In this document: one piece after another, positions 776-7,226 of the stretch
How positions within the stretch are numbered: position 1 is the first letter of the stretch
Layout: every line of letters begins with the position of its first letter
NCBI GenBank assembly: GCA_024278345.1
Contig: JAJRTK010000280.1
Span: 1 to 8,069 of the forward strand
Reading direction: 5' to 3'
DNA length: 8,069 bases
Source of the DNA: a bacterium
GTDB lineage: Bacteria > CSSED10-310 > JAJRTK01
Program-made: the position numbers and the translations under genes
The notes under the pieces: model-generated
Databases searched by the model: none
What the model was told of the DNA's origin: nothing
What the model saw: only the letters and a program-made list of their open reading frames with translations

Positions 776-818
776 TGTCCCGCCTTGCGTGGATAGGGTA
801 TCCACGCAAGGCGGGACA
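776..818. repeat. Perfect 20-bp inverted repeat at a copy A / copy C junction
   Basis: TGTCCCGCCTTGCGTGGATA (776-795) is followed after GGG by its exact reverse complement (799-818). It arises because the right terminus of copy A abuts the left terminus of copy C. As single-stranded DNA or RNA it would form a 20-bp stem with a three-base loop. A degenerate version of the same arrangement occurs at 6951-6998. Confidence 0.85.
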
Positions 819-1015
819 TTCCCGGGACTGTGGAATCGCAAGCGTCCGGGCAACGCCTCGCTATCGCTCGGCGGTGGTCCGGGGATTCCATCCCCCGTCC
901 CCTGGCAGGACTTCGCCCTGCACCCACCAGGGAGCTCGCTCCCTGGACCCAGATTTTTGTGCGCTGCGCGTTTTCCTTTTGTTTCCAATCTTTGTCCCGC
1001 CTTGCGTGGATACCC
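796..1015 (+). mobile_element. Element 1, copy C (intact 220-bp MITE-like element)
   Basis: This is the reference copy. Perfect 23-bp terminal inverted repeats occupy 796-818 and 993-1015. The interior is an ordered series of hairpins: GGGGAT-TCC-ATCCCC (881-895), an imperfect GCAGGAC/GCCCTGC stem just after 900, and CCAGGGAGC/GCTCCCTGG (927-946). These are followed by a T-rich tail holding GTGCGCTGCGCG. Bases 953-1012 repeat 736-795 of copy A without a difference, so the two copies are recent or are being homogenised. There is no transposase gene, so movement would need an enzyme supplied in trans. No 8-bp duplication flanks this copy. TA is present on both sides, but on the left it belongs to copy A. 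Confidence 0.75.
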
Positions 1016-2691: not shown

Positions 2692-3171
2692 ATGATTCGG
2701 TACGTGAACGCAACAGACAGCCTTACATCCCTGCAGCTCACGGGGTTCTTCGAGGGCTGGCCAACCCCGCCATCTCCGGAGCGGCATCTGATATTGCTTC
2801 GAAAAAGCGATGAAATTGTCCTTGCAGTGGAGAGCGCATCCGAAAAGGTCGTCGGCTTCATCACGGCCATTACGGACGGCGTGCTTTGCGCCTACATTCC
2901 CCTTCTGGAGGTCCTTCCGCCCTTCCGAAGGCAAGGCATTGGAAAAGAGCTGGTGCGAAGAATGCTTCGCAGCCTGGAAGGCCTCTACATGGTGGATCTG
3001 CTCTGCGATCCCCAGTTGCGGGAGTTCTATGCTTCATTGGGAATGAATCCTGCAACGGGAATGATGATCCGCAACTATCGTGTTCAATCTGGGTCAAAAG
3101 AGCAAAGGGCAAGGGGCAAACAGCAAGGGAATGCAACCCGAAAAACAGCGCACTCCGGTCTTCAGGAGTGA
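2692..3171 (+). CDS. GNAT family N-acetyltransferase
   Basis: A 159-residue GNAT-fold acetyltransferase that would move an acetyl group from acetyl-CoA to an amine. The acceptor cannot be inferred. The acetyl-CoA pyrophosphate loop is clear: VLPPFRRQGIGKELV, residues 74-88, carrying the R/Q-x-x-G-x-G/A signature as RRQGIG (79-84). The later LREFYASLGM segment (109-118) matches motif B, with the tyrosine that often acts as general acid. Residues 131-159 are a basic, Gln/Lys-rich tail outside the fold. The DNA there is purine-rich (AAAGGGCAAGGGGCAA type), so the tail may come from read-through into former spacer. The start at 2692 has only a weak purine stretch upstream, but it is the first ATG in frame after the divergent gene. 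The in-frame ORF extends left to 2101 only as an antisense shadow. Confidence 0.75.
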   Translation: MIRYVNATDSLTSLQLTGFFEGWPTPPSPERHLILLRKSDEIVLAVESASEKVVGFITAITDGVLCAYIPLLEVLPPFRRQGIGKELVRRMLRSLEGLYMVDLLCDPQLREFYASLGMNPATGMMIRNYRVQSGSKEQRARGKQQGNATRKTAHSGLQE

Positions 3172-5543: not shown

Positions 5544-5768
5544 ACTCCCCTGGTCTGCCCCCTACGGGTCATGAACCAATAAGACGCTTTTCTTTCTTTG
5601 GGTTGCCTTCCGCTCGCGGCGGCGGCAGTCCGTCCGCCGCCACTCGCACATCACCGCCCTTCACCCGGGCTCAATACCCGCAAGGCGTCTCACGACCCAA
5701 TTCTTGGTCCCCCCGGAGCCCGTACCGTGGAAACCAGTCTGCCCTCTTCCCCGGCATCAGCAGAAGAT
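5544..5768. other. Intergenic region with one GC-rich hairpin
   Basis: The gap between the glycosyltransferase (or the 34-residue ORF) and the methyltransferase holds no gene I can support. GGCGGCGG (5618-5625) pairs with CCGCCGCC (5634-5641) around an eight-base loop. No T-run follows, so it is not a standard intrinsic terminator. A T-rich tract (about 5588-5599) lies before it. No clear promoter is seen. Confidence 0.4.
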
Positions 5769-6878
5769 ATGTGCGTGGTTTGCCAAGGCGGGGATCCAAC
5801 TCAGGTGGGACAGAGAACCACGTGGGTGGGGAACTCGTTGCCTTTCATGGCAACGGGTCCCGCGAGCTCCCTGGTGGATGCAGGGCAAAGCCCTGCCAGG
5901 GGATCGGAAGCCGAGCAGAGTGAGACGCGGCCCAAAGGGCCGCAGCCAGACTCCCCGGACGGCCGCCGAGCAAAGCGAGGCGCCAGAGAGCCTCGAGTTG
6001 TCCCGCATTACGTGGATACACGCCAAGGCTCTCTTCTGCCTCTGGGGCGCCGCAAGGGTTCCGCCTACGCCTACTGCTTCCAGTGCGGCAGCGTTCAGCT
6101 CGTTCCCCTGCCCACCAAAGAGAAGCTCGCGCGCCTCTACCGGGAAGAATACCACGAGTCCGGGCACTATCATCTGGCGGCCGAGGCCAACGAAAAGCAG
6201 CGTCGCCACCTCAATTCCCGGATCGCCAGCCTCATCGCCAGCCTCCACCCCTCCACTGACCGCCGCCTAGTGGTAGAGCTAGGGACTGGTTGGGGCTCCT
6301 TGGGCCTGGAGATCATAGGCCGCGGACTAAGCTACCTGGGGCTGGAACCTTCCACCACCATGTGCCAGGCAGCCAAGGAACGAGGGCTGGACGTACGCCA
6401 GGGCAGCCTGGAGACGTTGGAATCCGATTCGGCTCTCCAAGGCCGCGTGCGGACCTTCGTCACCTTGTCGGTTTACGAGCATCTCGTGGACCAGACGGAC
6501 GCGCTGCGCCGGATGGCGGCCGTGCTCCCGCCGGAGGGCCGGATCGTCATTCAGTGTCCCACCGCCTCCGTACCCCGGATCGTGGGCCGGTGGCAACGGC
6601 GCCTGGCTCCACGTCGGGAACTGCCATCCCTACTGGGAATCTTCGCCCCTCCGTGGCACGTCTGCATGCCATCCATCCAGGGAGTGCGGCTCCAGGCGGC
6701 CCGCACCGGGTTGGTTGTGGAGCGAGTCCTTGCCTCCCCCTCGGGACGAAACTCCCGGCTGTCCGTGCGCCTAGCCCAAATCCTCCAGGAAACGGTGGCA
6801 CGATCCGGGCACCGGCTGTTTGGAGAAGGCTGGCCCATCTCCGCCTGCCATATCTTTGTGCTTCGCCACGCCGGATAG
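5769..6878 (+). CDS. Zinc-ribbon class I SAM-dependent methyltransferase carrying an in-frame MITE
   Basis: A 369-residue methyltransferase. The SAM-binding core is intact: VVELGTGWGSLGLEI (168-182) is motif I, GLEPS (191-195) has the acidic residue that binds the SAM ribose, and LSVYEHLVD (233-241) is the later conserved motif. In front is a zinc ribbon with cysteine pairs C2/C5 and C103/C106. YCFQCGSVQLVPLP followed by LARLYREEY is typical of methyltransferases acting on sugars or small metabolites. Here the two pairs are 97 residues apart because element 1 copy E lies between them. Removing 80 residues (8-87) leaves a CxxC-17-CxxC ribbon and a 289-residue protein of normal size. The start at 5769 places MCVVC at the N-terminus, as usual in this family, but its ribosome binding site is weak. 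A TTG start at 5598 adds only low-complexity sequence. The substrate is unknown, and whether the split ribbon still folds is open. Confidence 0.75.
   Translation: MCVVCQGGDPTQVGQRTTWVGNSLPFMATGPASSLVDAGQSPARGSEAEQSETRPKGPQPDSPDGRRAKRGAREPRVVPHYVDTRQGSLLPLGRRKGSAYAYCFQCGSVQLVPLPTKEKLARLYREEYHESGHYHLAAEANEKQRRHLNSRIASLIASLHPSTDRRLVVELGTGWGSLGLEIIGRGLSYLGLEPSTTMCQAAKERGLDVRQGSLETLESDSALQGRVRTFVTLSVYEHLVDQTDALRRMAAVLPPEGRIVIQCPTASVPRIVGRWQRRLAPRRELPSLLGIFAPPWHVCMPSIQGVRLQAARTGLVVERVLASPSGRNSRLSVRLAQILQETVARSGHRLFGEGWPISACHIFVLRHAG
5790..6021 (-). mobile_element. Element 1, copy E, inserted in the methyltransferase gene
   Basis: A 232-bp copy in inverted orientation. It is bounded exactly by GCCAAGGC at 5782-5789 and 6022-6029, an 8-bp target duplication. 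Its ends, 5790-5812 and 5999-6021, match the 23-base terminal repeat of copy C at 17 and 20 positions. Boundaries set by the duplication thus coincide with those set independently by copy C. Internal hairpins are CGTTGCC/GGCAACG (5836-5855), GCAGGGC-AAA-GCCCTGC (5880-5896) and GCGGCCC-AAA-GGGCCGC (5927-5943). Element plus one duplication is 240 bp, and the methyltransferase frame through it has no stop. Confidence 0.85.
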
Positions 6879-6975: not shown

Positions 6976-7226
6976 GGGTATCCACCTAAGCCGGGACACC
7001 CAACAAAAACAAAAAAAACGCGCAGCGTACAAAAACGTGGGCTGGGATCCCGTTGCCCTTCGTTGCAACGGGAAGATGAGCGCGCTCCCTGGTGGGTGCA
7101 GGGCGAAGCCCTGCCAGGGGACGGGGGATGGAATCCCCGGGCACCCGCCGAGCGACAGCGAGGCGTTACCCGGACGTTCGCAATTCCACAAACCTTGAAA
7201 TGTCCCGCCTTAACGAGCATGATCCC
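6976..7226 (-). mobile_element. Element 1, copy F
   Basis: An inverted copy of about 251 bp between the methyltransferase and the NlpC/P60 gene, downstream of both. The left terminal repeat (6976-6998) matches copy C at 20 of 23 positions. The right end is degenerate after TGTCCCGCCTT (7201-7211), so its boundary is approximate. Hairpins are TCCCGTTGC/GCAACGGGA (7048-7073), GCAGGGC-GAA-GCCCTGC (7098-7114) and GGGGAT-GGA-ATCCCC near 7125-7139. No target duplication is visible. Both neighbouring genes end towards it, so it could serve as a bidirectional transcription barrier; that is inference. Confidence 0.65.

Follow-up and report, generated by a model that had tools for sequence, protein, structure and literature searches.

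An in-frame MITE copy in a methyltransferase gene

The window, which is the whole 8069 nt stretch of DNA analysed here (contig C205 of a 6.06 Mb draft genome in 550 contigs), contains a methyltransferase gene with an N-terminal zinc ribbon that is split by a short repeated element, and further copies of the same repeat family lie upstream and downstream of the gene (Table 1). The Methyltransf_23 domain scores 41.6 bits against a cut-off of 27, and the methyltransferase part, 282 codons long, is free of frameshifts and stops and keeps the SAM motif. Codon bias is 0.22 bits per codon in this part, 0.21 in the neighbouring gene, and −0.01 in the insert. GTG 5727, with its GGAG, is likely to be a better start than ATG 5769, and from this start the first cysteine pair, the insert, the second pair, and the catalytic domain would all share one frame.

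Table 1. Features of the window (positions counted from its first nucleotide)
Feature	Position	Strand	Basis
Longer family member, 672 bp; part 436–752 is 81 % identical to the stretch after the ISL3 transposase on contig C5	126–797		
Family copy with paired terminal repeats	798–1013		
Likely Shine–Dalgarno GGAG, 8 nt upstream of GTG 5727	5715–5718	+	Read from sequence
Methyltransferase CDS, GTG start, with 80-codon insert; alternative start ATG 5769	5727–6878	+	Open frame; Methyltransf_23, E 1.4e-10
First CxxC (CVVC)	5772–5783	+	
Target-site duplication GCCAAGGC, upstream copy; completes second Cys codon of first CxxC	5782–5789	+	Sequence
MITE copy, 232 bp, in frame	5790–6021		Other copies in the same genome
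Left terminal inverted repeat; 5 mismatches to family repeat	5790–5812		
Right terminal inverted repeat; 1 mismatch to family repeat	5999–6021		
Target-site duplication GCCAAGGC, downstream copy	6022–6029	+	Sequence
Second CxxC (CFQC) of split zinc ribbon	6075–6086	+	
SAM methyltransferase domain (Methyltransf_23)	6204–6722	+	
Further family copy, downstream of methyltransferase gene	6976–7211		
Further family copy, truncated by contig end	7917–8069		

The sequence-only reading of this locus had proposed a MITE exactly bordered by an 8 bp target duplication, with both ends matching a 23-base terminal repeat, and the analysis bears this out. The family terminal repeat is GGGTATCCACGCAAGGCGGGACA; the window copy has GGGGATCCAACTCAGGTGGGACA at its left end and GTGTATCCACGTAATGCGGGACA at its right end (reverse complement). 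The duplication on its two sides is perfect, whereas a perfect 8-mer is expected by chance in roughly 1 in 65 000 such pairs. It provides the last two bases of the second cysteine codon in the first CxxC, so that TGC CAA GGC at the upstream duplication becomes CGC CAA GGC at the downstream end. The element and one duplication together come to 240 bp, exactly 80 codons, and, as had been claimed, the methyltransferase frame stays open throughout (open frame 5598–6878). With its paired terminal repeats, its 8 bp duplication, its short length, the lack of a transposase, and a high copy number in the genome, the window copy has the features of a MITE.

The element would code for sequence between the two metal-binding cysteine pairs, as predicted, and removal of residues 8–87 rebuilds both the predicted ribbon (CVVC-17-CFQC) and a protein of normal size, at 289 aa; the open frames of single-domain homologues with the ribbon are 297–359 aa. 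The two CxxC motifs start 21 residues apart at the rebuilt empty site and 101 residues apart in the gene as it stands. Nine homologues from unrelated genomes, all lacking the 80-residue block, have them 21–29 residues apart, so the N-terminal CxxC…CxxCG pattern at this spacing is present only without the insert. When the flanks are joined at the duplication they align with the nine homologues to either side of the junction, with a weak alignment in the profile for the N-terminal CxxC half. Joining them raises the profile score only a little, from 95.3 to 97.5 bits, owing to the variability of the first ribbon half. Two observations named beforehand as contrary to an insertion, conservation of the 80 residues in unrelated genomes and flanks that fail to align, did not turn up in the nine homologues. 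The cellular-genome and viral contig collections searched contain no close orthologue, and hence none near enough to show the empty site, only distant homologues in relatives.

The enzyme TcaB9 carries a zinc site in its N-terminal part. The closest solved relatives of the protein are TcaB9 and sugar 3-C-methyltransferases (PDB 3ndi, 5t64; E 2e-5 to 4e-5), with a match that spans the catalytic domain and begins close to, or at, the ribbon's second half; the similarity is weak, and within the aligned part nothing in the solved chains corresponds to the insert. Single-sequence structure prediction of the protein gave a model too poor to support a disordered loop (pLDDT 35). The RNA of the insert (5790–6021) is strongly self-complementary (z −4.5) and lies near the message start, where its folding could reduce translation.

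The repeat family and its probable parent

At ≤3 mismatches, the 6.06 Mb genome contains 246 forward matches to the terminal repeat and 251 reverse ones, and none to the reversed control; these some 500 matches, corresponding to about 250 element copies, agree with the proposal that the element is a MITE. A survey of 0.69 Mb found 46 element-sized repeat pairs, 21 of which are flanked by a duplication of 8 or 9 bp with ≤1 mismatch. The duplication is perfect in 15 (nine of 8 bp and six of 9 bp), so 8 or 9 bp is the size of the family's duplication. Taken with the perfect duplication at the window copy, these pairs make it all but certain that the insertion is a genuine product of transposition. 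Family members are mostly 168–355 bp long with GGGTATCC ends and lie mostly between genes; most of the other surveyed copies have no gene crossing the site.

The first 1030 nt of the window are a nest of several family members, in which the 672 bp member directly abuts the copy that follows it. Many contigs of the draft terminate inside the repeat, the window at both ends, and therefore the assembly has probably been broken by it and the copies under-counted. The terminal repeat was absent from seven relatives in the phylum and from all 192 other genomes searched, had no match among the plasmids or phages searched, and an Rfam search also gave no match.

ISL3 elements make 8 bp duplications and have ends that start with GG. 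Contig C5 (L082, 1–1238) contains the remnant of an ISL3 transposase (PF01610, E 1e-22, C5:9–767), interrupted by element-type sequence. After the remnant comes the stretch that resembles part of the 672 bp member in the window, and then the family terminal repeat (C5:1216–1238). The remnant is thus joined to the right-end module and terminal repeat of the family, and the left end lies off the contig. Since transposase remnant, MITE-like stretch, and terminal repeat follow one another here, the MITE family, which itself carries no transposase, probably derives from an ISL3-family insertion sequence, and the sequence on C5 is a candidate for the parent or a relative. The 1.3 Mb read contained no long element that has both ends together with a duplication, and no intact parent was seen there.

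Copies in other genes

Each of the six reading frames is open in some copies of the element, and 92 of 204 frames in 34 copies are stop-free (~45 %). Allowing one third for phase, about 0.15 of random insertions into genes would be expected to stay open. A single open case therefore means little, and other copies within genes were sought, without selection for openness, in about 1.3 Mb read in stretches. Five further clear cases were identified. The copies in L119 (291 bp), L124 (177 bp), L116 (252 bp), and L105 (near 2862–3075) are in phase and open, whereas the copy in L183 has one stop inside the element. Four open cases out of five, excluding the window, against about 0.15 expected for each, gives a binomial probability of about 0.002, by our own arithmetic on a small sample in which the choice of clear genes was made by the analyst. 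Copies for which the only sign of a gene is a long open frame, with neither a domain nor codon bias to back it (C254, C253, C99, C402, and C446), were excluded from the count.

Searching the entire genome with peptides, an approach that selects for open copies, revealed another copy in the L105 protein and copies in an ApbE-like protein (L128), a CHASE2-cyclase (L083), and an MFS/spermidine-synthase-like protein (L210). Stop-free, in-phase copies are present in verified genes for AMP-binding/ACP/acyltransferase (two copies), helicase, DsbD_2 membrane, CHASE2-cyclase, ApbE, and MFS/spermidine-synthase-like proteins. Pfam matches support real genes at L105, L124, L116, L128, and L083; for L119, which lacks a Pfam match, the status as a gene rests on codon bias. 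A bias towards one orientation among the in-gene copies was considered and dropped, as peptides from the opposite strand also find long open frames.

Two of these loci merit description. L105 (C124, 3–5396, minus strand) is an open frame for a 1798 aa reductase/AMP-ligase/ACP/acyltransferase with two in-frame copies of the element. A single Pfam AMP-binding match (640 to 1127) crosses one insert, and the second lies between the phosphopantetheine and acyltransferase domains. Tandem RSAGVPAE octapeptides are found in frame beside and within the element. L183 (C332, 8882–9123) is an SNF2-like helicase gene in which the flanks of the copy share a frame; given the internal stop, this is a probable broken gene.

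The inserts are read in differing frames, and synonymous change is not in excess. Comparison of the window insert with other copies gave pN/pS of 0.76–0.86 for three copies in genes and 0.63–1.46 for seven others. The inserted peptide is therefore without sign of constraint as protein, and selection seems to act only on keeping the frame open.

Consequences for the methyltransferase and comparison with known systems

The events at the locus are best explained as follows. A non-autonomous element would have been mobilized in trans by a transposase that makes 8–9 bp duplications, probably of the ISL3 family, and would have entered a gene for a class I SAM-dependent methyltransferase in its 5′ portion, just past the codons of the first CxxC in the N-terminal zinc ribbon. 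As the length of element plus duplication is divisible by three and the gene's frame meets no stop within this copy, it is proposed that the ribosome reads through and adds 80 residues between the cysteine pairs, most likely as an unstructured and functionally neutral loop. The insertion would have survived because the frame was open and the catalytic domain untouched. Transposition, read-through, and a tolerated neutral loop, taken as a whole and leaving the fate of the ribbon aside, are given a probability of roughly 70 %. The insertion is most likely to be tolerated ballast in an enzyme that is still translated.

Of the possible outcomes, a translated protein with a tolerated loop ranks first and a disabled ribbon second. 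In the latter case, only the SAM domain would persist, with translation beginning at the original start or at one inside or after the element. The distance between the CxxC motifs is now far beyond that in the homologues, and the ribbon is missing altogether from several proteins recovered by the homologue search (L032, L037, and others), so it is dispensable in the wider family; in-frame starts can also be read within the insert (ATG 5850 and GTG 6012). However, these internal starts have no clear ribosome site upstream, the original start, its GGAG, and the first CxxC are intact and in frame, and a long loop between cysteine pairs can in principle still allow one metal to be bound. Loss of the ribbon is therefore a possible but rather unlikely outcome.

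It is less probable again that the gene was already redundant or decaying, with its frame open by chance. Around 15 % of random insertions of the family would be in phase and stop-free, and the L183 copy, with its stop, indicates that the genome does contain broken genes. Against decay, the methyltransferase part is undamaged and has normal codon bias, and other genes of the genome also contain open, in-frame copies.

The closest analogues of the event in the window are the Rickettsia palindromic elements, which are short multicopy repeats found in frame in unrelated protein genes, where most insertions keep the frame (reviewed in PMC10969869). The present family likewise lies in frame within several unrelated protein genes. 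The likeness noted here is one of features. Rickettsia palindromic elements are repeats of ~150 bp that code for a conserved peptide (PMC10969869), whereas these MITEs are mostly longer, with their own ends and 8–9 bp duplications, are mostly intergenic, and are read in various frames; the frames and the pN/pS of the copies compared gave no evidence of a conserved encoded peptide. The same results bear on the suggestion, discussed for the Rickettsia elements, that the family is selected for coding and that its inserts are useful linkers or peptides. Several in-gene copies do lie in linkers or between domains, and insert-derived RSAGVPAE octapeptides have expanded in tandem and in frame, but the reading frame is not fixed and pN/pS shows no difference from other copies, which makes such selection very unlikely. 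Least credible of all is an assembly artefact in which two unrelated stretches were joined at a repeat, since, although draft contigs often end in this MITE, including both ends of the window, a false join would not predict an exact duplication together with a rebuilt, family-typical protein.

Coxiella QMITE and other intragenic MITEs, ERIC among them, sometimes fuse in frame with genes (PMC5896051; PMC10969869), as this MITE does; the present family differs in its ends, its host, the several unrelated genes hit, and the presence of two copies in one protein. Events of this type are thus already known (PMC10969869), and what adds interest is that they recur within a single genome, from a phylum that has been poorly sampled.

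In bacteria, in-frame insertions of mobile elements after which the protein may still function have been described mainly for Rickettsia, and there they could be due to a parasitic lifestyle and a reduced genome. The genome studied here, at 6 Mb, belongs to a distant lineage, and in it an unrelated MITE has the same outcome in several unrelated genes. As the duplications mark each event exactly, the frequency with which inserts are tolerated, and whether they later become useful, can be tested. It may be, as a tentative proposal that we hold with more doubt than confidence, that one probably ISL3-derived MITE family has repeatedly lengthened still-working proteins, even within a conserved domain, and that segments of the Rickettsia type would thus reflect a more general bacterial process.
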